Made by a program: the position numbers and the translations under genes | Shown here: one piece after another, positions 8,694 to 34,707 of the stretch | Layout: each line of letters opens with the position of its first letter | Position numbering within the stretch: the first letter of the stretch is position 1 | The notes under the pieces: generated by a model | Database searches by the model: none | Told to the model about the DNA's origin: nothing | What the model saw: the letters and a program-made list of their open reading frames with translations, nothing else | Virus record (IMG/VR): IMGVR_UViG_3300032309_002296 | Span: 1-36,784 of that record | DNA from: a virus | Reading direction: 5' to 3' (one strand) | DNA: 36,784 nucleotides

Positions 8694-9377
8694 ATGAAGC
8701 AAAAAATTCTTAAGTTTGCTATGTACGATGAAGTCTTTAGTCCAATAGTTCCAATAAAATCTTTAATCCCTGACTGGTATAAGTCTATTGATAAGTTTAA
8801 AAATGGAGCAAAGCAATACAGCCTTAATCCACCAAATGTTACAGTAAAAGTTTGTGGTCCATATATGGATTCAATGCTTACTGGATATGCTTTAACAGCA
8901 CCTATAGATTTTTTAGTTGAAATAGAAGATGGGAAGCCAAAGATTAGACACAGGCTAGATGGGCATTTTATTGCAGAAAGATCTGCAAATCAAGAAGTAC
9001 CAGCCCCTCCAGGATTTTATAGTCAGCAGTTTGCGTGGGAATCAAAAGTGGCAATTGGAATACCAGAAGGATATAGTTTTTTATTTACTCATCCATTAAA
9101 CAGAGTTGACCTGCCATTCTACACGTTGTCTGGTGTAGTAGACGGACCATATGATATGCAACCAGGCAATTTTCCATTTTACATAAGAAAAGGGTTTTCT
9201 GGAGTAATTGAGGCTGGCACCCCAGTAGCTCAAATTATACCTATTAAAAGAGAGCCTTGGAAAGCTGTTTCAGATTTAGATATAATTAAAAATGCAGAGA
9301 TAAACCACAGGCTTTCAACCAAGTCTATGATTGGCTGGTATAAGCAAAACATATGGAAAAGAAAGAGTTACGAGTAA
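8694..9377 (+). CDS. Conserved phage protein of unknown function
   Basis: This 227-residue protein contains LIPDWYKS (24-31), VKVCGPYMDSMLTGYAL (about 51-67), GYSFLFTHPLNR (about 127-138), DLPFYTLSGVVDGPYD and GTPVAQIIPIKREPWK (about 176-191). I recall similar proteins in many aquatic and T4-like phages, listed as domains of unknown function. The ending 'GTPxxQIIPxKREPW' and the preceding beta pattern suggest a compact beta-barrel. It lies at the end of the first fibre block, just upstream of a promoter, with a weak AAGGG ribosome binding site. No catalytic motif is apparent to me. Confidence 0.5.
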   Translation: MKQKILKFAMYDEVFSPIVPIKSLIPDWYKSIDKFKNGAKQYSLNPPNVTVKVCGPYMDSMLTGYALTAPIDFLVEIEDGKPKIRHRLDGHFIAERSANQEVPAPPGFYSQQFAWESKVAIGIPEGYSFLFTHPLNRVDLPFYTLSGVVDGPYDMQPGNFPFYIRKGFSGVIEAGTPVAQIIPIKREPWKAVSDLDIIKNAEINHRLSTKSMIGWYKQNIWKRKSYE

Positions 9378-16136: not shown

Positions 16137-16805
16137 ATGCCAGACTACTCATCATTATCCACGCAAATAGGTCAATTTAAAACAGCAGCTTCTGCTTTAA
16201 TGACAAGCGATGCGCTTAATGCCAATGAACTACAATTAGTTGGTGCGGCATTAAATCAAATGGCTAACACTTTGGGTGTTGCTGATATTAATAACTCTGT
16301 TGTTGATGGAGTTACAACAATTAATGCAGCAAAAGATGCAGCAATTACAGCATTTAATGGCGGCACTAATGGAACAAGATTAACTACAGCAGAAGGAAAA
16401 GTTTCAACTCTTGAAGGCAAAGTTACAAACATTGAAGGTTTTGTTTCTACAAATACAAATCAATATACAACTCTTCAGTCTACAGTAAGTGCTCTTCAGT
16501 CATCTTTATCTACAGTTCCATCAACTTGGAAGATTATAACATCTAACTATACTGCTACAAATAATGATAGACTTTTAGTTCAAGCTGCAGCACCAGGACT
16601 TGTAATTACACTTCCATTAAATCCAGCAGCTGGATTTACAGTTGAGTTTGTAGATACACTTGGAACAGCTGCATCAGTACCATTTACAATTGCAAGAAAC
16701 TCACAAAACATACAAAGAGTTGCAGAAAATTTAGTATATAATGTTAACGGTGGAATACTTAGATTGATCTACGTAGACGCAACAAGAGGGTGGGTAAGAG
16801 CATAA
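16137..16805 (+). CDS. Fibre-module protein with helical N-terminus
   Basis: This is a 222-residue protein. Residues 1-55 (MPDYSSLSTQIGQFKTAASAL...ELQLVGAALNQMANTLGVADI) are helical and closely match the N-terminus of the 22737-23069 protein. Residues about 85-130 form a coiled coil (EGKVSTLEGKVTNIEGFVS...LQSTVSALQSSLS). The C-terminal part (WKIITSNYTATNNDRLLVQAA...) is a beta domain like those at the tips of phage fibres. The arrangement anchor, coiled-coil stalk, beta tip suits a short trimeric fibre. It overlaps the next gene by one base (TAATG). Confidence 0.6.
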   Translation: MPDYSSLSTQIGQFKTAASALMTSDALNANELQLVGAALNQMANTLGVADINNSVVDGVTTINAAKDAAITAFNGGTNGTRLTTAEGKVSTLEGKVTNIEGFVSTNTNQYTTLQSTVSALQSSLSTVPSTWKIITSNYTATNNDRLLVQAAAPGLVITLPLNPAAGFTVEFVDTLGTAASVPFTIARNSQNIQRVAENLVYNVNGGILRLIYVDATRGWVRA

Positions 16806-17182
16806 TGGCAAACCTAAGCGATGTTTTTATAGAGACAAGCGCAAAAACAAATCTTGAATTTCAGACCTACAAGACTGGAAGACGAGATCTTGGAACCGTA
16901 AGCGGCGCACAGACTTTAGACCTTGCTCTTTCAAATGATTTTACAGCAACAGTAAATGGAAATACAACATTTACAATTACAAACACCCCAGCAACTGGAG
17001 TCGTAGGATTTTCACTACAGCTGGTTGGTGGAGGAGCTTATACAATAACATTTGCAAATGCAAAATATCCAGCCGCAACTGCACCAGCTTTGACAACTGG
17101 TGGAATTGACGTTATAACATTTATTACTTACGACAACGGTGTAAACTGGCGTGGAACTCTAGCAATGAAGGACTCAAGATAA
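16805..17182 (+). CDS. Small beta-sandwich virion protein
   Basis: I use the ATG at 16805 (125 residues), overlapping the upstream stop; a GTG at 16790 is possible but less likely. The core reads TLDLALSNDFTATVNGNTTFTITNTPATGVVGFSLQLVGGGAYTITFANAKYPAA...GGIDVITFITYDNGVNWRGTLA. This beta pattern is common in phage tail proteins. The 25893-26330 protein shares the domain (FTGIPATNKAAFWQVEIKAGGSYTITWPGAIRW...LLNFYTRDGGTTIYGG) and also precedes a tail-assembly-chaperone-like gene, so the pair is duplicated. The role is probably structural. Confidence 0.55.
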   Translation: MANLSDVFIETSAKTNLEFQTYKTGRRDLGTVSGAQTLDLALSNDFTATVNGNTTFTITNTPATGVVGFSLQLVGGGAYTITFANAKYPAATAPALTTGGIDVITFITYDNGVNWRGTLAMKDSR

Positions 17183-17682
17183 TGTACGCACAAGTTATAG
17201 ATGAAGAAATTACAACAGTTGTTAACGAACAATCATTAAGAGAAATGTATCCTTCTACACATTTCCCATCACCATTGACCCAGGAAGCCTTAGAGGGCTT
17301 TGACGGATGGTATGTGGTAAATGATGCAGTAGAGGTTCCAGCATATGATAAAGCCTCTGAAAAATTAGAATTTACAAGAGAGTTTAATGGAACATCCGTT
17401 GTAGGTAAATACTCTGTTACTAAACTTTCAAATGCAGAAAAGGCGGCAGCAAAAGAAGCAAGAAAGCAAGAAGTAAGATACCACAGAGATAACACTTTGG
17501 CATCAACAGACTATTTAATGACATCAGATGTCCTTAATTCATTTTCTGCATCAGATCAAGAAAAGATAACTGAATACAGACAGGCTCTAAGAGACTTAAC
17601 AGATCAAGCCGATCCATTTAATATTACTTGGCCAGTACTTGGAGTAGAGTCAATTCAATTAAGATACAAAGTAGAGATCTAA
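17182..17682 (+). CDS. Tail assembly chaperone-like protein
   Basis: This is a 166-residue protein. The N-terminal half is an acidic domain (YAQVIDEEITTVVNEQSLREMYPSTHFPSPL). Residues about 105-155 (RHRDNTLASTDY...YRQALRDLTDQ...ITWPVLG) match the phage tail assembly chaperone domain (Phage_tail_APC-like), with the RDNxLxxTD and YRQALRDxT signatures. Such proteins help fibres fold or assemble. The gene overlaps its upstream beta-sandwich neighbour by one base and abuts the downstream gene. The 26348-26791 protein is a paralogue with the same N-terminal form. Confidence 0.7.
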   Translation: MYAQVIDEEITTVVNEQSLREMYPSTHFPSPLTQEALEGFDGWYVVNDAVEVPAYDKASEKLEFTREFNGTSVVGKYSVTKLSNAEKAAAKEARKQEVRYHRDNTLASTDYLMTSDVLNSFSASDQEKITEYRQALRDLTDQADPFNITWPVLGVESIQLRYKVEI

Positions 17683-18612
17683 ATGCCATTTCCGCCAGCC
17701 AGATATGCTACAGCAACAGGAAGAACTTCATTTCTTCTTAGACAGATAATCACAACTGGCTACGTCATATGCGGATATAGAAACAGTCAACCTTGGACTA
17801 GCGTAAACCAGGTAACACATTCAACAGACACAACATTAGATTATGGTAGCCCAATGCCAAATTCTACCGCTTATCCTGCAGGAATGGCTGACGATAATTT
17901 TGCTTATGTATTAAAAGCAAACAATGGAGTTGGTGGCTCAAGTACAGCTAACAATAGATACAGTATGAGAACAAATACTGGAACATCATTTACAGGTTCC
18001 CCTACCAACGTAGGAAACGGTGGAACAGCGCTTCACAAAGAACAGGCTCGTGCATGGGTTAATCCTCACACAAACGCTGGAATTTTAATAAGATTTGATT
18101 TTCCTACTGCTACATTTATAAGCAATATCGGACAATCTTTTGGTCAGCAAGGCGCTTCAGGCGGATCTTCTTTTTATGGAGAAAACCATGGATACCAATA
18201 TGGAGACGGCAATAGCAGCATCTGCGGGTTTAGATTTAATTTTGCAACAGAAACCCAGCAGTCAACAAATGTTTATGGAGCACACGGACAACAAAAAGCT
18301 ATTTCTACAAAACTAGAAAAGGGGTATGCTCCCAATGAAGGAGATTATGCTGGAGGCAATAACTTAAGAAGATTTAACATGACCACTGAAACAAATATAG
18401 GAAACGTTTCAAAGCCTATTACAAATTGCGGAGAAGAAGATCACGATATGGGGCAGGCGCACCAGTATATGCTTGGAAACTATAACGGAGAACAAAACAA
18501 CAGGTCTTGGAGATTTAATTACGCAACAGACAGTGGATTTGAAGGCGGCGGAACAATGCAATCAAAAGGAGTGCCTGGAAGAAGTTCAGCGTACTCTGCT
18601 CAACGATCATAG
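17683..18612 (+). CDS. Virion protein with FxFxxATE repeats, possible beta-propeller
   Basis: This 309-residue protein begins MPFPPARYATATGRTSFLLRQIITTGYVICGYRNSQPW. I recall similar starts in structural proteins of T4-like aquatic phages. A short repeat, (I/F/W)RF(D/N)(F/Y/M)xTxT, recurs near residues 130 (IRFDFPTATF), 184 (FRFNFATETQ), 229 (RRFNMTTETN) and 271 (WRFNYATDSG), about 45-55 residues apart. Repeating short beta units with His/Gly/Asn-rich loops suggest a beta-propeller. It is likely displayed on the tail. The start directly follows the chaperone stop codon. Confidence 0.55.
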   Translation: MPFPPARYATATGRTSFLLRQIITTGYVICGYRNSQPWTSVNQVTHSTDTTLDYGSPMPNSTAYPAGMADDNFAYVLKANNGVGGSSTANNRYSMRTNTGTSFTGSPTNVGNGGTALHKEQARAWVNPHTNAGILIRFDFPTATFISNIGQSFGQQGASGGSSFYGENHGYQYGDGNSSICGFRFNFATETQQSTNVYGAHGQQKAISTKLEKGYAPNEGDYAGGNNLRRFNMTTETNIGNVSKPITNCGEEDHDMGQAHQYMLGNYNGEQNNRSWRFNYATDSGFEGGGTMQSKGVPGRSSAYSAQRS

Positions 18613-18627
18613 TAGATAGGTTCTAAA

Positions 18628-19359
18628 ATGCGTTACATAAACGATATTATATCGGATACTTCTAATTATACAAAAAGTCAAAAAGACATACTGCTCTATG
18701 CCGTAAACAGGCAATGGGGAACTCCAGTTTTTAAGATAGATAATTTTGTTGGCGGTTCACAATTCACACCATTTGGAAAGCTTCGTCAGCTACTATTAGA
18801 ACTAGGATCAAGAGAAACATTAATTTCAGAGCAAGAGCTAAAACTAGAGAGAGTAAAACTAGAAATTGAATTAGAAAAAGAGCTTATTGACTTAACGTCT
18901 TCCCCAGCACAAAAAAAGATTCATCAATTAAACATACTTGAAAAAGAACGTACTTACAATCAAAATAAAGTTTATTTAACAATGACATACGATGAGCGTG
19001 ATAAATATATGATGCTTATTGAAAGATTTAATGAGTCAGAAGAAGGCAAGCTTCCAGACGGCAGACTGGTAATGGACATTATCGGAAACCATGAAGAGGA
19101 AGAAAGATTAGAAGCAGAGCTTTGGGCAGTTAGATTAGGCGCTCAAGCAGGGTATGACCTAATGTTCTATGGAAGAGTAAATAACGGGAACATGGAGGCC
19201 ATAGATCAGTTGCCAACAGAAATTAGAAAATTAGCAATTGAAAATGCGGTAGAAAAAGCAATAGTAACTAATCAAACTATTGTAGATCTAGAGAATCAAG
19301 TAAAAGAAAGATTGCAGATTGAAAATTCTGTCACAGAAGATTGGACACAGTTGGACTAA
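18628..19359 (+). CDS. Unknown protein with long coiled coil
   Basis: This 243-residue highly charged protein runs MRYINDIISDTSNYTKSQKDILLYAVNRQWGTPVFKIDNF. It then carries a strong helical region, about residues 52-115 (KLRQLLLELGSRETLISEQELKLERVKLEIELEKELIDL), likely a coiled coil. The rest is also mainly helical (EEEERLEAELWAVRLGAQAGYDLMFYGRV). I recall similar proteins in large T4-like aquatic phages but no known function. It overlaps the next gene by one base, so both are probably co-translated. Absence of Gly/Thr-rich beta repeats sets it apart from the fibres. Confidence 0.5.
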   Translation: MRYINDIISDTSNYTKSQKDILLYAVNRQWGTPVFKIDNFVGGSQFTPFGKLRQLLLELGSRETLISEQELKLERVKLEIELEKELIDLTSSPAQKKIHQLNILEKERTYNQNKVYLTMTYDERDKYMMLIERFNESEEGKLPDGRLVMDIIGNHEEEERLEAELWAVRLGAQAGYDLMFYGRVNNGNMEAIDQLPTEIRKLAIENAVEKAIVTNQTIVDLENQVKERLQIENSVTEDWTQLD

Positions 19360-19916
19360 TGCTTTATTTTTTGTTTGACCCCGTAGATAAAACGGAGAAA
19401 AATAATTACATCCAACATATTGGTGAATGGAACAATTTGCTCATAGGGGCAATAGATGAAAGCCAGATGCTATATCTGGACCTTCCAAGAATGACGGTGG
19501 TAACAAAAGAAGTTGCTCTTGCGTATCAGTTTGTTGGAAAATATAAAGGCTATATAAAGCTTAGGCCAAACACTTTACATTTATCACAACTAGAGGGCAA
19601 GCCATTTGAGCAGGTAGAGGGTAAGTTTAAATATACATTAACTGAAGAAGATAAACAAAATGCATGCCTTTTCCAAAAATCTGCAATGATCTTTATGCTA
19701 GAAAAATACTATTCAAATAAACTTTTGTTGTCAAGAAATACTCCTGACTTTTTAAAAGAAGATGGGTTTGAGTCTGAAGAATACCTTTTAAACAAAAAGA
19801 ATGAGATATATCAAAAGATTATCTCTTGCCAAGACTGGGTAGAAGCTGGTATACTATTAAATAATCATTTTGGCGTTCATTATGATGCGGATACTTTATC
19901 AAAAATAGATTTGTAG
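19359..19916 (+). CDS. Unknown protein
   Basis: I choose the ATG at 19359, overlapping the upstream stop (TAATG), which gives 185 residues; a TTG 18 nt upstream is possible. The protein has mixed beta and helical segments (MLYFLFDPVDKTEKNNYIQHIGEWNNLL; RMTVVTKEVALAYQFVGKYKGYIKL; YQKIISCQDWVEAGILLNNHFGVHYD). I recognise no family. Together with the coiled-coil gene before it and the barrel-methyltransferase after it, it may form one operon. Confidence 0.45.
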   Translation: MLYFLFDPVDKTEKNNYIQHIGEWNNLLIGAIDESQMLYLDLPRMTVVTKEVALAYQFVGKYKGYIKLRPNTLHLSQLEGKPFEQVEGKFKYTLTEEDKQNACLFQKSAMIFMLEKYYSNKLLLSRNTPDFLKEDGFESEEYLLNKKNEIYQKIISCQDWVEAGILLNNHFGVHYDADTLSKIDL

Positions 19917-19921
19917 GATAA

Positions 19922-21571
19922 ATGTTTAGCGTACCATTAAACCCAAAGCTAAATGAGAATCAGCTAAATGAATTTATTTCTTTCTTAAAAGACTATAAAG
20001 ACTACATATATGATTTTTATTTTACCTGTAGGGTTGCCCCATTTAATCAAGACGCCATGGGCGATATTTTTCAGGGTGGAAAAGAAGACCACGATTATCT
20101 AATTGATCTTGCATTGTATATTCAGAAAGAGACAGGCGTTCTTGCCTCCGCTGTATTTAATAATACGGAAGTTAGGCCAGACCAACAAAACCTGGACCTG
20201 TTTATTAAAAGCTTTCTGCCAGTATATGAAATGGGAATTAGGTCTGCCACAATACCTCACACCCACTGGATGGCAACAGGCCAAATTAAAAAAGCGTTTC
20301 CAGAGCTATTTGTAAAGAATACTATTCTTAGAAATGTTTCAGAGCCAAGGGATATAGAAAAACTAGCCAAGGCTGGATTTGATTATGTCAACCTGGACCG
20401 TGACCTAATGCGTGATCATGCAAAGCTAAAGCTTTTTAAAAAGGCAAAGACTCAGTTTGGTGTAAAATTATCACTGCTTGCTAATGAGGGTTGCTACGGC
20501 GGATGCATAATGATGGATGAACATTATCAGTTTAATAATACACGCACAGACGGACCTCAATATTTTAATGACCCAATAAGCAGGGTTTCTTGCCCGAAGT
20601 GGGATCATGAAGATTTTGCGGTATCTTTAAAAACAGCTAATTTCCCACCATGGCGTGAGGATTGGCAGGAGTTCCTAGATAATCTAGGTATCGATGTTAT
20701 TAAGATGCATGGTAGAGAGTCTCATACAAGGCTTAAGGAGACCATGGATATAATCAGGAGGTATGCCAATAATGAAGAAATTCTATTTGACAGCTTTAAT
20801 GATTTTATTGAAGAAACTAATATGGTTGACAAACCAATTACCATCTGGCGCAATAAGATCAAAAATTGTAAATTTGATTGCTGGGATTGTGGCTATTGTG
20901 ACAAAATAATGGCTGCCAAATATGGCAACCACATAAGCCCAAAGGTTGCTATTGTTGCACAGCAATTAGTTGACTCAGTAAATAATCCAATTAAAATTAA
21001 TATACCAGGATTAACATCTACAAGAGTTCAGTCTTTAATTAATGGTCTAGCTAAGTCGTCCTCTAAATACCTCGAAATTGGTTCTTATCAGGGCGCTACA
21101 GCCGCAGCTGCGTTAATCGGCAACAAGATACATGCATACTTTGTAGACACATGGCAGGAAGCCCCACAAGCCGTTAGAGAAGGGTGGGAAACTCCAAAAA
21201 CTAATTCTCTTGAAGAGTTCAAAAAGAATATTGATCCATATAAAGGAGACAATAAGGTATTTATATCTAACTCAGATATGTTTAGGGTTAACATAAAGAA
21301 TATTTCAGATATTGATCTTTTCTTTTATGATGGTCCACATGATGCTGAGTCCACAAGAAAAGCTGTTAAATATTATTCAGCAGCATTTGCTGATGAGTCT
21401 GTTTTAATATTTGACGACGCAAATTGGACTGAAGTGGTACAGGGTGCCCATAAGGGCATAGTTGAGTCTGGATTAAAAATATTGTATAGTAAAAAAATAT
21501 TAAATTCATTAGAGTCCGAATCAGAATGGTGGAACGGATTATACGTAGTAGTAGTAAAAAAAATAAAATAA
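19922..21571 (+). CDS. U32-like TIM barrel fused to a SAM-dependent methyltransferase
   Basis: This 549-residue protein has two parts. Residues 1-330 look like a TIM barrel resembling peptidase U32/UbiU-type proteins, with LANEGCYGGC (C191, C195), C224 and a C316-x3-C320-x2-C323-x2-C326 cluster, enough cysteines for an iron-sulfur or zinc site. Residues about 375-549 are a class I methyltransferase of the Methyltransf_24 type: motif I YLEIGSYQGATAA (383-395), D409 after strand 2, FFYDGPHD (467-474) and IFDDANW (496-502). Family knowledge predicts methyl transfer from S-adenosylmethionine. The substrate is unknown; glycan, fibre protein or a host metabolite are all possible. The CX3CX2C is at the end of the barrel, unlike radical SAM enzymes. 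Confidence 0.65.
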   Translation: MFSVPLNPKLNENQLNEFISFLKDYKDYIYDFYFTCRVAPFNQDAMGDIFQGGKEDHDYLIDLALYIQKETGVLASAVFNNTEVRPDQQNLDLFIKSFLPVYEMGIRSATIPHTHWMATGQIKKAFPELFVKNTILRNVSEPRDIEKLAKAGFDYVNLDRDLMRDHAKLKLFKKAKTQFGVKLSLLANEGCYGGCIMMDEHYQFNNTRTDGPQYFNDPISRVSCPKWDHEDFAVSLKTANFPPWREDWQEFLDNLGIDVIKMHGRESHTRLKETMDIIRRYANNEEILFDSFNDFIEETNMVDKPITIWRNKIKNCKFDCWDCGYCDKIMAAKYGNHISPKVAIVAQQLVDSVNNPIKINIPGLTSTRVQSLINGLAKSSSKYLEIGSYQGATAAAALIGNKIHAYFVDTWQEAPQAVREGWETPKTNSLEEFKKNIDPYKGDNKVFISNSDMFRVNIKNISDIDLFFYDGPHDAESTRKAVKYYSAAFADESVLIFDDANWTEVVQGAHKGIVESGLKILYSKKILNSLESESEWWNGLYVVVVKKIK

Positions 21572-21663
21572 ATTTGCGCCAGCATAGATACGAGCATATA
21601 TAAGACTATGTTGTGTGGAAAGGGCCTCAAGTCCCACACTTGAAATTACAGAAAGAGATATTG

Positions 21664-22614
21664 ATGAAATTTACATCATCCCTATTGTTAGCAAATCAGC
21701 AGTTCTTGATATTGCTAGCGTCAGTAATGGCATTGTCCTTTGCTGCAAAGAAAACCCAGGTATTCCTGCCATTTTATAGTTGGATTGCCAAAACTGTTAA
21801 ATCTAAAAGAGCAGTAGTTGCTCTTATCTCCCTTTTCTCTGGTGTGCTACCAATTTCAGGACGTGTCGCTATTTCGGCTGGTGCTCTAGATACAATTGCC
21901 CCAGAAGATCAAAAGAAGCGTAAGAATTATGGAATCATTGATTACCTGTCTACGCACCATTTCTATTTTTGGTCACCACTAGAAGCAACAGTCCTTCTAC
22001 CAATGGCTGCGCTAAATATTAGCTACTGGGCCCTTATTGGAAAAATTTGGCCTTTGCTTGCTACAGCAGTAATCGTAATTTTATTTTACATTTTTAGGAT
22101 TTTAAAAGAAGAGGATATTGATATTAATATTCCAGACAAGCCTTTAAAGAAAAAGGATAAGCAGCCTTGGCAAATTGAAGCAGATGCAAAGCGTGACCGC
22201 AAGCAATTAGTTGATTATGCAAGAGTGCTTTTGTTTACTGGTATTGTTATTATCCTAAGTAATATTGTTAAGGCTAATTTTGACACTATTAATTCATGGG
22301 TAGAAGAAGCACATCGAAATAATCTAATACTCCTAGTTGCCGTTGCTGGATTCCTGGCTAGTTTTGCCCTTGGAAGCAGCAGCAAATTTGCTGGATTTGT
22401 AGTTATCTCAGTAGGGGTTTTTGGCATTGAGACATTGCCATTATTCTTTGCTGTTGACTATGCTGGATATATGTTGTCTCCAGCACATAAATGTCTGGTT
22501 GTAGGGAAGAGCTATTTTAGAACCCCTCTTAAGGATTACTACAAGGCAATTTTTGCCCTAGTTGTCCCAGTGGTTCTAATGGGTATAACTTTGTACTACG
22601 GCGGGATCCTCTAA
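21664..22614 (+). CDS. DUF401-like multi-pass membrane protein, probable transporter
   Basis: I choose the ATG at 21664 (316 residues), because the upstream 17 codons look non-coding. The protein has about seven to nine hydrophobic segments, with a cytoplasmic charged loop near 147-182 (KPLKKKDKQPWQIEADAKRDRK). Motifs include FSGVLPISGRVAISAGALD (58-76), STHHFYFWSPLEATVLLPMA (96-115) and AGYMLSPAHKCLVVGKSYF (267-285). The GYMLSPxHxCLxxxxxYF form matches the C-terminal signature of DUF401 permease-like proteins as I remember them. Substrate unknown. The paired Pro/Gly-rich motifs in the two halves suggest an inverted-repeat transporter. A transporter inside a phage fibre block is unusual and may be an auxiliary gene. 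Confidence 0.6.
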   Translation: MKFTSSLLLANQQFLILLASVMALSFAAKKTQVFLPFYSWIAKTVKSKRAVVALISLFSGVLPISGRVAISAGALDTIAPEDQKKRKNYGIIDYLSTHHFYFWSPLEATVLLPMAALNISYWALIGKIWPLLATAVIVILFYIFRILKEEDIDINIPDKPLKKKDKQPWQIEADAKRDRKQLVDYARVLLFTGIVIILSNIVKANFDTINSWVEEAHRNNLILLVAVAGFLASFALGSSSKFAGFVVISVGVFGIETLPLFFAVDYAGYMLSPAHKCLVVGKSYFRTPLKDYYKAIFALVVPVVLMGITLYYGGIL

Positions 22615-22625
22615 AAACCTATTGT

Positions 22626-22654
22626 CCCCACTGGCTTCTAGAAGGCCAGTGGGG
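22626..22654 (+). terminator. Strong GC-rich hairpin after the transporter gene
   Basis: CCCCACTGGC (22626-22635) pairs perfectly with GCCAGTGGGG (22645-22654), a 10-bp stem around a 9-nt loop. It lies 12 nt past the transporter stop. No T-tract follows; instead TATAAT follows at once. It may end the upstream transcript or separate two transcription units. Confidence 0.5.
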
Positions 22655-22660
22655 TATAAT
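22655..22660 (+). promoter_or_regulatory. Candidate -10 box TATAAT after the hairpin
   Basis: A perfect TATAAT abuts the hairpin. Transcription would start near 22667 and place the second hairpin (22669-22692) at the 5' end of the mRNA. A -35 at 17 bp (TGGCTT) is weak, and it lies inside the hairpin's DNA. Confidence 0.4.
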
Positions 22661-22668
22661 AAGTTAAG

Positions 22669-22736: not shown

Positions 22737-23069
22737 ATGCCAGATTATGCAAGTTTAACAACCCAAGTAGAATTATTCAAGACCAAGGTAGGAGCCCTTA
22801 GCGGATCGACACTTGGAGCACAAGAATTGGTTTATCTAGCCAAAGCTATTGAATCAATGGGAAATCTTTTGGGAGTCAACGACGTTTTGGCAGCTACAAA
22901 TACAAAGCTAAATGATATCTCAACTGCAGTAACAGGTGCCGTAACAACTGTTTCAAGCGCAGGAAGCACACAAGTAGCAGCAGTAGCTGCAGCAGGAGCA
23001 ACACAGGTAGCAGCTGTTGCTAATGAATTAAATAACTTTACAATCTATCAGAATATGGGAGTAATATAA
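22737..23069 (+). CDS. Short helical fibre-base protein, paralogue of the 16137 gene N-terminus
   Basis: This is a 110-residue protein. Residues 1-50 (MPDYASLTTQVELFKTKVGAL...ELVYLAKAIESMGNLLGVNDV) align well with the start of the 16137-16805 protein. The rest is a helical Ala/Thr-rich coiled-coil-like segment (STAVTGAVTTVSSAGSTQVAAVAAAGATQVAAVANEL) without the C-terminal beta tip, so it is a shortened paralogue. It opens the third fibre block after a promoter. It may connect a fibre to the particle. Confidence 0.55.
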   Translation: MPDYASLTTQVELFKTKVGALSGSTLGAQELVYLAKAIESMGNLLGVNDVLAATNTKLNDISTAVTGAVTTVSSAGSTQVAAVAAAGATQVAAVANELNNFTIYQNMGVI

Positions 23070-23408: not shown

Positions 23409-24404
23409 ATGTCAGAAGTTTCCAGCACCTCGCAGTCCACTTATTTACCAGGACTTACAACAACAATAAATGAGGCTGTAACAAGAGGTCTACAAACAGG
23501 TATTACAGCACAAGCTATCGCAGCAGGTGGAGTAAGCTCAATGTTCATGCCTCTTGAAGATCGAGTATACTCTTCAGGTAACTGGACACGTCCAGCTAAT
23601 ACAGGACCAGTTATTAAAATGATTCTTGTTGGTGGAGGCGGTTCAGGCGGATGTGGAGTAAGCTGGTCACACTCTGGCTCAGGTGGCGGAGGAGCGGGAC
23701 AACTTGTTGAAAGATGGCTAGATATTTCTACAATTCCAATCGGAGGAACAATTCCAGTTAGCATTGGAGCAGGTGGTCCAGCTGTAGGAGGAAATTCAAA
23801 CGGAAATAACGGATCTAACTCTTCATTTGGTGTAAACGGACAACCGTTTTATTTAATTGCATACGGTGGCGGAGGCGGAGGATATCCAGAAAGTAACGGA
23901 AACAATGGAAACTCTGGAAGTATGGGACCAGGTTATGGAAATCAAAACGGAGGCGGATCTGGCGGTGGCGGTGGATCTAACTACGGACAGTCTTATGGCG
24001 CAGGCGGAGGCGGCGGCGGAGCAGGAAACGCAGGCGTTAATGCAAGATGTACAACAACTCAAAATGGAGTTGGATCATCTGCTCGTCAAGGAGGATTTGG
24101 TTGGGGCCCTGGAGCTTCAGGTGGTGGATGCGGTGCATCACATAGCTGGACTTCATGGATTGGAACTGGTGGTGGAGGCGGAGATGGTATGTATGGAATT
24201 GCAGGCGGTGGCGGAGGCGGAGGATCAGCAGGTGGAGGAGGATCTTGTGGCGGTGGCGCAGGAGGATCACAGACAACTGATAACTCAGGTGGTCAAGGCA
24301 TGGACGGAACAGGTTCAGGCGGCGGAGGAAATAACCACTCAGGTGGAAATGGACAAAAGGGAGGTTCTGGCGTAGCTATTATTACATACTACGTTAAGGC
24401 ATAA
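23409..24404 (+). CDS. Glycine-rich adhesin
   Basis: This is a 331-residue protein. The N-terminus (YLPGLTTTINEAVTRGLQTGITAQAI) is probably an attachment helix. From about residue 58 (SSGNWTRPANTGPVIKMILVGGGGSGG) it becomes glycine-rich to the C-terminal IITYYVKA strand. Blocks such as GGGGGG alternate with short polar loops (GQPFYLIAYGGG, HSWTSWIGTGGG). It is paralogous in order and wording to the 24930-25865 protein and related to the 4442-5533 protein. Glycine-rich phage receptor-recognition domains use such loops for host contact. AAAGGAG is the ribosome binding site. Confidence 0.75.
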   Translation: MSEVSSTSQSTYLPGLTTTINEAVTRGLQTGITAQAIAAGGVSSMFMPLEDRVYSSGNWTRPANTGPVIKMILVGGGGSGGCGVSWSHSGSGGGGAGQLVERWLDISTIPIGGTIPVSIGAGGPAVGGNSNGNNGSNSSFGVNGQPFYLIAYGGGGGGYPESNGNNGNSGSMGPGYGNQNGGGSGGGGGSNYGQSYGAGGGGGGAGNAGVNARCTTTQNGVGSSARQGGFGWGPGASGGGCGASHSWTSWIGTGGGGGDGMYGIAGGGGGGGSAGGGGSCGGGAGGSQTTDNSGGQGMDGTGSGGGGNNHSGGNGQKGGSGVAIITYYVKA

Positions 24405-24685: not shown

Positions 24686-24930
24686 TGTCAAGAACTTGGG
24701 CACTATTAGTAGACAACACTATAGGAAATGTTATTATTGCGGAAGAAGATTTTATTGAATCTCATCCAGATTTCTCTGGCTTAGATCGGATAGATATTAC
24801 AGATTATGATCCACAACCAGGCATCATGTGGACTCTAGAAGAGAATAAGTTTAAAGCACCAGAATCAGTAAGACCAAAACCAGAGCACGTTGTACCAGAA
24901 ACTGTTCTTGAAATCGAGGTAAAGTCATAA
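24685..24930 (+). CDS. Small acidic protein, possible adhesin assembly helper
   Basis: This is an 81-residue protein. The pattern SRTWALLVDNTIGNVIIAEEDFIESHPDFSGLDRIDITDYDPQPGIMWTLEENKFKAP resembles the 8396-8674 protein (VIDGKVVDVL...VIDVTE...WDWDGENFSYP), and form and position link both to a family of short fibre-linked proteins. It overlaps both neighbours by one base (TAATG each side), so it is coupled to the glycine-rich adhesin that follows. Function unproven. Confidence 0.5.
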   Translation: MSRTWALLVDNTIGNVIIAEEDFIESHPDFSGLDRIDITDYDPQPGIMWTLEENKFKAPESVRPKPEHVVPETVLEIEVKS

Positions 24931-25865
24931 TGGCAACATACGGAACAATTAATCAAATTTATGTACCAGGATTAGATGAACAAATTTTAGCATCAACAAC
25001 AGCTCTTTCAACATCTATTGCAATCCCGTTGATTGCACAAAATCTTTCAGGTTTTTATAATGCTTACGAATCAACAATTTTAAGCGGTGGCTCATGGACA
25101 CGTCCAGCAAACAGCGCACCACAGATTGAAGTCATCTTAGTTGGCGGTGGCGGAGGAGGCGGATGTACTTGCGGTTCAGCCGATCACGGTGGCGGTGGAG
25201 CAGGACAGCTTCTAAAAAGAACTCTTGATATTTCATCAGTTCCAATAGGACAGGGAATTTCAATTGGTATTGCAAACGGTGGAACATGTAATTCACAGGG
25301 TGGAAACTCAACATTTGGAACTTCAGGACAGCCATTTTACATGGTTGCATACGGTGGAGGTTCAACTCAAGGTAATGGACAATCAGGTTCAAATGGTCCA
25401 GGAGCTAATAATAGAACAGGAATTGGCTCAGGCGGTGGCGGACAAGGTGAATGGCAAAATTCATGGGGAGGCGGCGGAGGCGGCGGTGGAGCAGGAGGAG
25501 CTGGAGATCAAGCTAATGTGCAGTTCCCTAACTCAGGAGGATACGCAGGTTATTTTGGTGGAAGCAGAAACTCATCAGAAGGTTCATCAGGTGGAGGACC
25601 AGGTGCAGCTAACTCAAATGACTCAGCATACAGATCACACGGTGGTCGTGGAGGCTCAGGACTTTACGGACTAGCTGGAGGAGGCGGAGGTTGTGGAAGA
25701 GGATCAGGTGGCGGAGGATCAGCAGGTGGAGGCTCAGGACAAGGAGATCACTCTGGATCTCCAAGACATAGCGCTCAGCCAAACTCAGGCAGCGGTGGAG
25801 GCGGCGGAGCAGCAAACACAGGTGGTTCAGGAATCTGCAAGATTACCTATTGGGTAAAAGCTTAA
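24930..25865 (+). CDS. Glycine-rich adhesin, tandem paralogue
   Basis: This is a 311-residue protein. The N-terminus (TYGTINQIYVPGLDEQILASTTALSTSIAIPLIAQNL) parallels the 23409 protein. SGGSWTRPANSAPQIEVILVGGGGGGGCTCGSADHGGGGAGQLLKRTLDISSVPIG follows the same order as its paralogue, then glycine-rich blocks run to the C-terminal KITYWVKA. Differences fall in the loops between glycine runs, where receptor contacts are expected. Two such genes in tandem suggest duplicated adhesins with different specificity, or partners in one complex. Confidence 0.75.
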   Translation: MATYGTINQIYVPGLDEQILASTTALSTSIAIPLIAQNLSGFYNAYESTILSGGSWTRPANSAPQIEVILVGGGGGGGCTCGSADHGGGGAGQLLKRTLDISSVPIGQGISIGIANGGTCNSQGGNSTFGTSGQPFYMVAYGGGSTQGNGQSGSNGPGANNRTGIGSGGGGQGEWQNSWGGGGGGGGAGGAGDQANVQFPNSGGYAGYFGGSRNSSEGSSGGGPGAANSNDSAYRSHGGRGGSGLYGLAGGGGGCGRGSGGGGSAGGGSGQGDHSGSPRHSAQPNSGSGGGGGAANTGGSGICKITYWVKA

Positions 25866-32797: not shown

Positions 32798-33139
32798 ATG
32801 GATATCAATAATACTAAATACAAGGTTCTTGATGAAGAGAGCACACTAGGCATATATGTCTGGGAGATGCCTGACGGCAGGTGGATTGGAGACGACGATG
32901 GGAACTTTCTTTCAGTCACGTCAAAAAAAGGCAATAGATCCAGAATCGATGCTTTGGCTAGAGAAGTTCGCACATTCGGTATATATGAAGGCGGGCCTAA
33001 ATTTCTTTCTGCAAGAAGAAAAATTGATGACGAAGAATTTGAATACCAAAAACAAAGACTTAACTGGGGATTAATTCCAGACCCTATGGATATTGGTAAC
33101 TATAAAGATGAAATGAAAAAGATGGGTGGCATGAAATGA
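32798..33139 (+). CDS. Small conserved protein upstream of portal
   Basis: This is a 113-residue protein. It contains YVWEMPDGRWIGDDDGNFLSV (20-40), REVRTFGIYEGGPKFLSARRKIDDEEFEYQKQRLNWGLIPDPMDIGNYKDEM (57-108). Proteins with the EGGPxFLxGxRxIxDxExxxQxxRxxxGLxPDPxD form precede portal genes in many actinophages, as I remember them. The function is unknown; packaging or portal assembly is plausible by position. It overlaps the portal by 4 nt (ATGA) and has its own promoter, so it opens the head module. Confidence 0.6.
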   Translation: MDINNTKYKVLDEESTLGIYVWEMPDGRWIGDDDGNFLSVTSKKGNRSRIDALAREVRTFGIYEGGPKFLSARRKIDDEEFEYQKQRLNWGLIPDPMDIGNYKDEMKKMGGMK

Positions 33140-34707
33140 TTGAGGTTCAAGAAGAAGACGGAAATACAATTGATATATCTAACACAGCCGACTGGTTTTC
33201 CTTTAAAAAAGAGCAGCCAACAAGTGACCCATTTGCAATAAGCGGGGATGACCTAAGAAAAGTAAGAGGCTTAGGAACAGCATTTAAAAGAAAAATTAAC
33301 CGAGAGTTTTCAAAAGCCTTTACAGGAATTGAAGGAGTAGGCACACAACAAAATCTTCTTGCACAGGCTATTAGTGGCTATGCAATGTTTGACCTTATTG
33401 AGCCACCATACAACCAAGAATATCTATCTAAAATTTATGAAGTGTCAACATATAACTATGCAGCAATTAATGCAAAGGTTGCAAACATTGTTGGGCTAGG
33501 ATACGATTTTGTTGAAACAAAAAAGACAAATGATGCATTTGATTCAATAACAGATGAGAAGCAATTAGAAAGAGCCCGCAAAAAGCTTAACAAGTTGCGC
33601 CAAGACCTACACGGATGGCTGGACACAACAAATGAAGAAGATACCTTTACTCAAACATTAATTAAGGTGTACACAGATTTAGAAGCAACAGGAAACGGCT
33701 ATATTGAAATAGGCAGAACTACAGGCGGAAACATCGGATACATTGGGCATATTCCTGCAAAGACAATGCGTGTCCGTAGACTAAGAGATGGCTTTGTTCA
33801 ATTGCTTTACGGCAAGGCAGTGTTCTTTAATAATTTTGGAGACACAGAAACAGAAAATCCGATTGCTGGACAAGAAGATCGACCAAATGAAATTATACAT
33901 TTAAAGAAGTACACACCAATGAACAACTACTACGGCATACCAGATATTGTGGCTGCCCAGGTTGCGCTAACGGGTAATGAATTTTCTGGAAGATATAACC
34001 TAGACTACTTTGAAAATAAGGCGGTCCCAAGATATATTATTACAGTAAAGGGAGCAAAGCTTTCACCAGAGTCAGAAAGAAAGCTGCTTGAATTTTTCCA
34101 GGTGGGGTTAAAGGGCAAGAACCATAGATCCCTATATGTCCCACTTCCATCAGATACCCCTGACTCAAAGGTTGAATTTAAGATGGAGCCAATCGAAGCT
34201 GGAAACCAAGAAGGCTCATTTGAAAAATATCGTAAATCAAATAGAGATGAAATTTTGCTAGCCCACCGTGTTCCAATTAATAAAATAGGAACACCAGAAG
34301 GAGTTAATTTAGCAGTTGCTCGTGACGCAGATAAGACATTTAAAGAGCAAGTCTGTAGACCCGCCCAGATGATTCTAGAAAAGAAAATTAATAATATCTT
34401 TGGCGAGAAGACAGACGCATTGCTTTTAAAGTTTAATGAGTTAACATTGACTGACGAAGATACCCAGTCTAAAATTGACGAAAGATATTTAAGAATGCAG
34501 GTCATTACCCCTAATGAAGTTAGAATTAGAAAGGGCATGATTCCAATTGATGGCGGAGATAAGGTTGTAGACCTTCAAGCCCAAGCAGCAGAAATTAGAG
34601 CCCAAGCTGGGAACACCAGACAAAGGTCTCAAGATCGCCAAGCAAATTCCCCAGATGTTTCTGGAGAAGGAAGAAATGCTAAAGGCGACGGCAGACAAGT
34701 TGACTAA
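33136..34707 (+). CDS. Portal protein
   Basis: This is a 523-residue protein with the form of PBSX-family phage portal proteins. It includes an early YNYAAINAKVANIVGLGYDFVE (about 110-130), a helical segment, DLEATGNGYIEIGRTTGGNIGYIGHIPAKTMRV (about 176-210), EIIHLKKYTPMNNYYGIPDIVAAQVALTGNEFSGRYNLDYFENKAVPRYIITVKG (about 253-307) and VPINKIGTPEGVNLAVARDADKTFKEQVCRP (about 377-407). A dodecameric portal forms the entry for DNA packaging and binds the terminase. The last 40 residues are hydrophilic and disordered-looking. The first start (33136) overlaps the upstream gene as ATGA. Confidence 0.85.
   Translation: MIEVQEEDGNTIDISNTADWFSFKKEQPTSDPFAISGDDLRKVRGLGTAFKRKINREFSKAFTGIEGVGTQQNLLAQAISGYAMFDLIEPPYNQEYLSKIYEVSTYNYAAINAKVANIVGLGYDFVETKKTNDAFDSITDEKQLERARKKLNKLRQDLHGWLDTTNEEDTFTQTLIKVYTDLEATGNGYIEIGRTTGGNIGYIGHIPAKTMRVRRLRDGFVQLLYGKAVFFNNFGDTETENPIAGQEDRPNEIIHLKKYTPMNNYYGIPDIVAAQVALTGNEFSGRYNLDYFENKAVPRYIITVKGAKLSPESERKLLEFFQVGLKGKNHRSLYVPLPSDTPDSKVEFKMEPIEAGNQEGSFEKYRKSNRDEILLAHRVPINKIGTPEGVNLAVARDADKTFKEQVCRPAQMILEKKINNIFGEKTDALLLKFNELTLTDEDTQSKIDERYLRMQVITPNEVRIRKGMIPIDGGDKVVDLQAQAAEIRAQAGNTRQRSQDRQANSPDVSGEGRNAKGDGRQVD

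Follow-up and report, generated by a model that had tools for sequence, protein, structure and literature searches.

The closest described relatives of the protein reported here are the cellular DUF401 proteins (PF04165, TIGR00529), with which it shares the motif frame LP-x-PG/SG, NYWFRH/DYLxxHH and SPxHxC..YF. In contrast to these, the viral form lacks the N-terminal ~40 residues, in the window type as well as in the cyanophage type, and the window type additionally lacks the middle segment of the cellular forms. Databases already contain phage DUF401 proteins, annotated as hypothetical or as DUF401. PHROG 14035, annotated as function unknown, holds proteins of the cyanophages S-H25, metaG-MbCM1, S-CAM4 and ACG-2014j, which are 46-48% identical to the window protein in the aligned pieces but are longer (340-346 aa), contain a further membrane segment in the middle, which is absent from the window type, and are recorded as hypothetical. 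The S-H25 gene has the accession QIN97195.1. The Ralstonia phage RP12 protein A0A1L7N0V7, a DUF401 family protein, superimposes with a TM-score of 0.84 at 33% identity, though RP12 is a jumbo phage of a proteobacterium; the main text of its genome paper names no DUF401 gene (PMC5468394). More distantly, VcINDY (DASS), ArsB and CitMHS share the overall fold and repeat design at only ~11-12% identity, the window protein having fewer helices and other binding-site residues. Members of this ion transporter (IT) superfamily hold their substrate at four places where helices are broken. In the full-text literature, in which few subscription papers are covered, we found neither a paper on phage DUF401 nor a description of the transporter-barrel pair outlined below.

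The window analyzed here is the whole stretch of 36,784 nt, positions 1 to 36,784 of the IMG/VR record IMGVR_UViG_3300032309_002296. The gene in question and its immediate borders are:

21650..21658, plus strand: RBS-like purine-rich sequence AGAAAGAGA, by direct sequence reading
21664..22614, plus strand: CDS of the DUF401-like inner-membrane transporter, 316 aa, PHROG 14035 (Pfam, PHROG, AlphaFold2 model, dN/dS)
22612..22665, plus strand: strong hairpin directly 3' of the transporter stop (RNA fold -28.3 kcal/mol, z -6.9)

The open reading frame comprises 316 codons from the ATG at 21664 to the TAA at 22612-22614. An alternative GTG start at 21613 (333 aa) is possible; the start at 21664 is preferred because it is common to the homologs. 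Copies at 84-91% identity were found on 16 IMG/VR contigs, and a comparison of the window with eight of its closest relatives gave dN values of 0.06-0.09 versus dS values of 0.7-3.4 (dN/dS ~0.02-0.09), i.e. the frame is under strong purifying selection. Together with the match to PHROG 14035 (E=2.8e-74), the close relatives and the low dN relative to dS show that it is no chance ORF. The 316-residue multi-pass membrane protein described in an earlier note on this DNA is therefore real, as the codon count, the RBS-like sequence and the selection indicate. The downstream hairpin has a weak T-tail and is absent from the terminator scan list; it probably marks either the end of a transcription unit or an RNA structure between genes.

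Against Pfam DUF401 (PF04165) the window protein scored 38.4 bits, above the cut-off of 24. The match is partial, the best stretch covering profile positions 297-387 and the second 42-186 of 393, leaving out the middle of the profile and ~40 N-terminal positions. The score against TIGR00529, a hypothetical equivalog, was 46.8 bits (E=2.6e-12), far below the cut-off of 378.4, and by this measure the protein is no TIGR00529 equivalog. With a partial Pfam match and a TIGR00529 score below cut-off, we consider it a divergent, shortened DUF401 relative. CitMHS (PF03600) gave 15.2 bits, below the cut-off of 31.9; L168, a relative from a bacterial contig, exceeded both cut-offs (CitMHS 44.0 versus 31.9, DUF401 24.6 versus 24). 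Among 60 family members, matches at E<=0.01 were obtained by 59 for DUF401 and by 17 for CitMHS. Querying solved structures by sequence with the family profile yielded no useful match.

The AlphaFold2 model of the window protein, computed from an alignment of 60 rows (58 viral and two from bacterial contigs), reached a pLDDT of 84.1 and a pTM of 0.81. Searched with Foldseek against the PDB, it matched VcINDY (probability 1.00, TMq 0.66) and ArsB (probability 1.00, TMq 0.61), and furthermore NaS1 and the TRAP transporter SiaQM (TMq 0.49 for the latter). Matches to the IT superfamily had probabilities of 0.99-1.00 and TMq values of 0.44-0.66, yet their E-values were weak (0.02-0.15); some unrelated membrane proteins gave similar E-values, but at low probability and TM-score. 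Consequently, the support for the fold comes from probability, TM-score and the agreement with the CitMHS sequence matches, and on these the predicted model has the fold of the IT superfamily. Among viral structures the sole strong match was the RP12 protein (E=1.7e-17). Profile score, fold resemblance and the predicted presence of six spanning helices all agree with the phage-encoded DUF401/ion-transporter-superfamily membrane protein that the earlier note had put forward, and which it would have given up for a protein of fewer than six helices with no permease profile match.

According to the model, the spanning helices number six, including two discontinuous ones; with two re-entrant hairpins they would form two repeats, each consisting of a helix, a re-entrant hairpin, a discontinuous helix and a further helix. 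The predicted helix breaks are encoded at:

21838..21867, plus strand: predicted tip of hairpin 1, codons 59-68, SGVLPISGRV (helix break in the model; P63, G66 and R67 invariant)
21949..21990, plus strand: first discontinuous helix, codons 96-109, STHHFYFWSPLEAT (H98, H99, W103, S104, P105 and E107 invariant)
22366..22389, plus strand: predicted tip of hairpin 2, codons 235-242, ALGSSSKF (from the model; G237, S238 and S239 invariant)
22471..22500, plus strand: second discontinuous helix, codons 270-279, MLSPAHKCLV (from the model; P273, H275, K276 and C277 invariant)

The four breaks, located at LPISGR, THHFYFWSPLE, GSSSK and SPAHKC, make up 42 of the 316 residues and hold 18 of the 33 positions conserved at >=97% (hypergeometric p ~1e-9, with break limits chosen by the analyst from the model). 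All three motifs quoted in the earlier note were found and belong to the best-conserved parts of the family. A profile alignment with a pair of cellular DUF401 proteins spanned the greater part of the protein (hhalign probability 97.5%, E=5e-12); in it the viral R67, H98, E107 and K276 correspond to Gly, Arg, Tyr and Ala or Leu, respectively. Since the residues of the site differ in this way, the viral transporter probably accepts another substrate than its cellular relatives. The substrate would be bound in the space flanked by the hairpin tips and the unwound helices, two of each; at this predicted site R67, H98, H99, W103, E107, S238, S239, H275, K276 and C277 are invariant. This set suggests a small anionic, carboxylate-like or metal-complexed solute.

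A single motif scan retrieved 458 relatives in IMG/VR versus two in 84,980 cellular species genomes. Both cellular carriers are short MAG contigs holding ordinary bacterial genes; in L168, 16 nt separate the gene from an MFS-like gene upstream of it. Profile searches in 240 and 237 genomes of the two carriers' phyla detected no other strong viral-type match. Neither the transporter nor the barrel described below was found on plasmids. In the tree, a very long branch with 100/100 support divides the viral family, together with the two rows from cellular contigs, from the two ordinary cellular DUF401 proteins included, so that the phylogeny called for in the earlier note does place the phage copies apart from the ordinary cellular genes. 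The window falls within a set of nine rows (94/98), of which the inner five are supported at 100/99; the order of the deep viral branches is left without resolution. Recent capture of the gene from a host had been considered and was dropped, as the motif occurs on the two cellular contigs alone and the searches of their phyla were empty. The transporter family is thus large and, in the collections searched, almost exclusively viral. The earlier description of such transporters as rare in phages has to be corrected: the gene was found on hundreds of viral contigs and in nine cyanophage records, and both PHROG 14035 and the UniProt entry of RP12 already existed. In S-CAM4 (L021 11694-11897) the transporter is found outside the fibre module, downstream of PhD/YefM antitoxin-like and transaldolase genes.

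In the window the transporter follows a conserved gene module, whose neighbour counts refer to 27 sequence groups from the first 165 loci:

17683..18612, plus strand: fibre-like module CDS, 309 aa, phrog_1417 (E=1.6e-42; 22/27 groups)
18628..19359, plus strand: module CDS, 243 aa, phrog_1409 (E=5.9e-27; 24/27 groups)
19341..19916, plus strand: module CDS, 191 aa (21/27 groups)
19922..21571, plus strand: CDS of 549 aa with a Cys-rich N-terminal region and a C-terminal Methyltransf_24 domain (PF13578 E=7.5e-10; phrog_1458 E=3.1e-162)

Fibre-like ORFs occupy 16137-18612 and resume from 22737 on, which agrees with the position between fibre blocks stated earlier. Paralogous fibre-type ORFs and genes of glycine-rich repeat proteins flank the module (16137-16805 and 22737-23069; 23409-24404 and 24930-25865). 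The 549-aa protein contains seven invariant cysteines, including NEGCxxxC and CX3CX2CX2C, and is possibly a metal or Fe-S enzyme; in two loci (L084 and L086) its Cys-rich and Methyltransf_24 halves are separate genes. Its reading as a U32 peptidase is not claimed here, as Pfam returned only Methyltransf_24 and a weak AP_endonuc_2 match (best 0.014), and a sequence search of solved structures with the profile of the Cys-rich neighbour gave nothing useful. A further family, phrog_7084, is found near the transporter in 14 of the 27 groups and in the window 12 kb upstream (8694-9377; also L026 5551-6255 and L062 114-824, listed alongside L069 7267-7992); its member in L026 is DUF6065-like (E=1.3e-7). 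No periplasmic binding protein or regulator was found near the transporter.

The 549-aa gene lies upstream of the transporter in 24 of the 27 groups, often with overlapping or abutting stop and start codons, and in several groups these codons do overlap. The transporter could accordingly serve the module by providing the Cys-rich methyltransferase-like enzyme with a cofactor or substrate; the enzyme would in turn modify fibres or the host surface during virion assembly. We regard this as distinctly improbable. Of the 123 phage (cyanophage) records in which the enzyme appears, as a hypothetical protein, the transporter is present in nine only; conversely, the transporter occurs together with its barrel partner in different surroundings, with no enzyme module nearby, for example in L188-L190. 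As each is found in the absence of the other, enzyme and transporter can live independently, and the module indicates a frequent landing site, not a required partner.

A second association is found in related viruses. In two of them a transporter is fused to a barrel-like domain within a single protein of 540 aa. The fusions and examples of separate barrel genes are:

L077 920-2551: transporter-barrel fusion
L079 6236-7855: transporter-barrel fusion
L069 8879-9682: barrel gene
L086 7126-8007: barrel gene
L186 5992-6786: barrel gene

A search with the fused barrel domain yielded 79 viral contigs, which include near-copies and represent 12 transporter groups at 70% identity. The transporter is present in 73 of them: adjacent to the barrel in 68, fused in three (L077, L197, which is the same contig as L079, and L198) and ~2.3 kb away in two. 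Four of the six contigs lacking it end <200 nt from the barrel on a possible side. Adjacent pairs are encoded on the same strand in either gene order, and in 52 contigs the barrel overlaps the following transporter by 13 nt. In the fusions the last transporter helix continues into AVNA/EE or AKA/D, which are typical signal-peptidase sites; the fusions may therefore be polyproteins that are cleaved, in which case the C-terminus of the transporter would face the periplasm. The barrel itself was not found in the phage records searched and is known here from viral contigs only.

The predicted barrel (265 aa, pLDDT 88.5) has 12 strands. Its best fold match is FapF (E=4e-10, TM 0.68), followed by COG4313, NanC and KdgM, channels of the same strand number and shape, and weak HMM matches to Phenol_MetA_deg (COG4313-type) were obtained for 20 of 44 members; a sequence search of solved structures with the barrel profile returned nothing useful. 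Different from these channels is the N-terminal TonB-box-like segment of the barrel: in most of 43 sequences the part following the signal peptide reads L-x-E-[VI]-[VI]-V-[TS]-A-K, a short motif, with a V kept in 42 of the 43. A classical TonB-dependent transporter is built from 22 strands with a large plug; the barrel has 12 strands, and no plug domain was found in it. It would be an unusually small TonB-coupled channel. A phage-encoded TonB-dependent outer-membrane protein is also reported for the marine megaphage Mar_Mega_1, whose SusC-like TonB receptor is annotated as SusC; the accessible portion of that report mentions no paired inner-membrane transporter (PMC9723777). One related locus (L084 6253-8007) encodes a 585-aa protein with a signal peptide, a TonB-box-like start and a weak TonB-plug match (E=0.014), which ends at the start of the transporter; this locus does not have the 12-strand barrel.

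Two alternatives to uptake were considered. Phage inner- and outer-membrane proteins such as SieA and Llp are classical exclusion factors, and a membrane protein encoded beside fibre genes and linked to a barrel with a TonB-box-like start could likewise block the DNA entry of other phages, while the barrel would mask or mimic the TonB-dependent receptor of competitors in diderm hosts. We consider superinfection exclusion unlikely, because the invariant residues cluster at the helix breaks of the transport site, where an occluding plug has no need of them, and are preserved in several types of phage with several likely hosts, although exclusion proteins usually vary fast. Moreover, the whole fold is that of a transporter. 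Of the roles weighed in the earlier note, auxiliary metabolism and a block of superinfection, the consistent occurrence of an outer-membrane channel with the transporter in related phages speaks for transport. As to direction, export of a toxic or signalling metabolite in the manner of ArsB, with the barrel as outer-membrane exit in diderms, would fit the rank of ArsB among the best fold matches (TMq 0.61) and the role of FapF, the nearest structural match of the barrel, as a secretion channel. Efflux is nevertheless quite unlikely in our view: the TonB-box-like segment behind the signal peptide suggests inward, energy-coupled movement, an adapter protein is absent, and to our knowledge no simple two-protein efflux system of this design exists.

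The portal protein of the window (33136-34707) is 57-59% identical to portals of Streptomyces phages, among them Yaboi, which is filed under Stanwilliamsviridae. Furthermore, whiB was detected in 12 of 29 related contigs tested, including three of six tested in the window's own cluster; WhiB has likewise been used as a marker for freshwater actinophages (PMC10914622). From the portal identity and whiB in related contigs, the phage probably infects an actinobacterium of lakes, i.e. a host with no outer membrane. A cyanobacterial host, our first guess from a neighbour gene 44% identical to a cyanophage gene, was replaced after the portal and whiB results. The barrel is absent from all 12 whiB-bearing contigs, close relatives of the window included. 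It was also not found in the three cyanophage genomes tested, although their hosts have an outer membrane; cyanophages do not fit a simple two-membrane rule. A Streptomyces-phage-like portal beside a module shared with T4-like cyanophages was unexpected, and points to exchange of the module between unrelated phages.

Uptake of a solute is indicated by the strict linkage to a channel in probable diderm hosts, its absence with monoderm hosts and the conserved transporter site, and import in particular by the TonB-box-like segment. We therefore consider it reasonably probable that the window gene encodes a compact, secondary-active transporter of the IT superfamily, belonging to a viral DUF401 branch, which would import a small solute; the gene, its family, the predicted fold, the conservation and the linkage are shown, while membrane site, mechanism, direction, substrate class and benefit to the phage are deductions. 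The protein would be inserted into the inner (cytoplasmic) membrane of the host during infection and, keeping the minimal IT core of two repeats, may operate by elevator-type alternating access in analogy to VcINDY and ArsB. An organic anion or metal complex is our guess at the class of substrate, based on the invariant Arg, His, Lys and Glu residues, on the kinship with CitMHS, DASS and sialic-acid TRAP transporters and on the NanC/KdgM-like channels. Where the host is diderm, the solute would cross the outer membrane through the barrel, probably with TonB coupling, and then be carried into the cytoplasm by the DUF401-like protein; for the window phage the inner-membrane part alone should suffice, given its probable monoderm actinobacterial host. 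More tentatively, and with rather less confidence than we place in the transporter itself, many aquatic phages might carry a complete mobile two-membrane uptake unit, composed of a TonB-coupled 12-strand channel and an IT transporter and sometimes synthesized as a single polyprotein, with the last transporter helix acting as signal peptide of the channel, the inner half only being kept by phages of monoderm hosts such as that of the window.

Discussions of viral transport proteins usually treat them as individual genes borrowed from hosts. The family described here is large and viral, has a binding-site signature of its own and, in many relatives, is tied to a dedicated outer-membrane channel. 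This pairing suggests that the viruses concerned come equipped with an uptake route for a small solute. If the unit imports a nutrient, phages would remodel both envelope layers of their hosts, a solute limiting infection in lakes and sea would be indicated, and a handle on the function of DUF401 in bacteria would be gained. As to the latter, a cellular DUF401 gene (L182 1476-3766, genome G062) starts 4 nt inside the end of the preceding gene, which looks like a type II isopentenyl-diphosphate isomerase; this arrangement is a possible clue to cellular DUF401 function.
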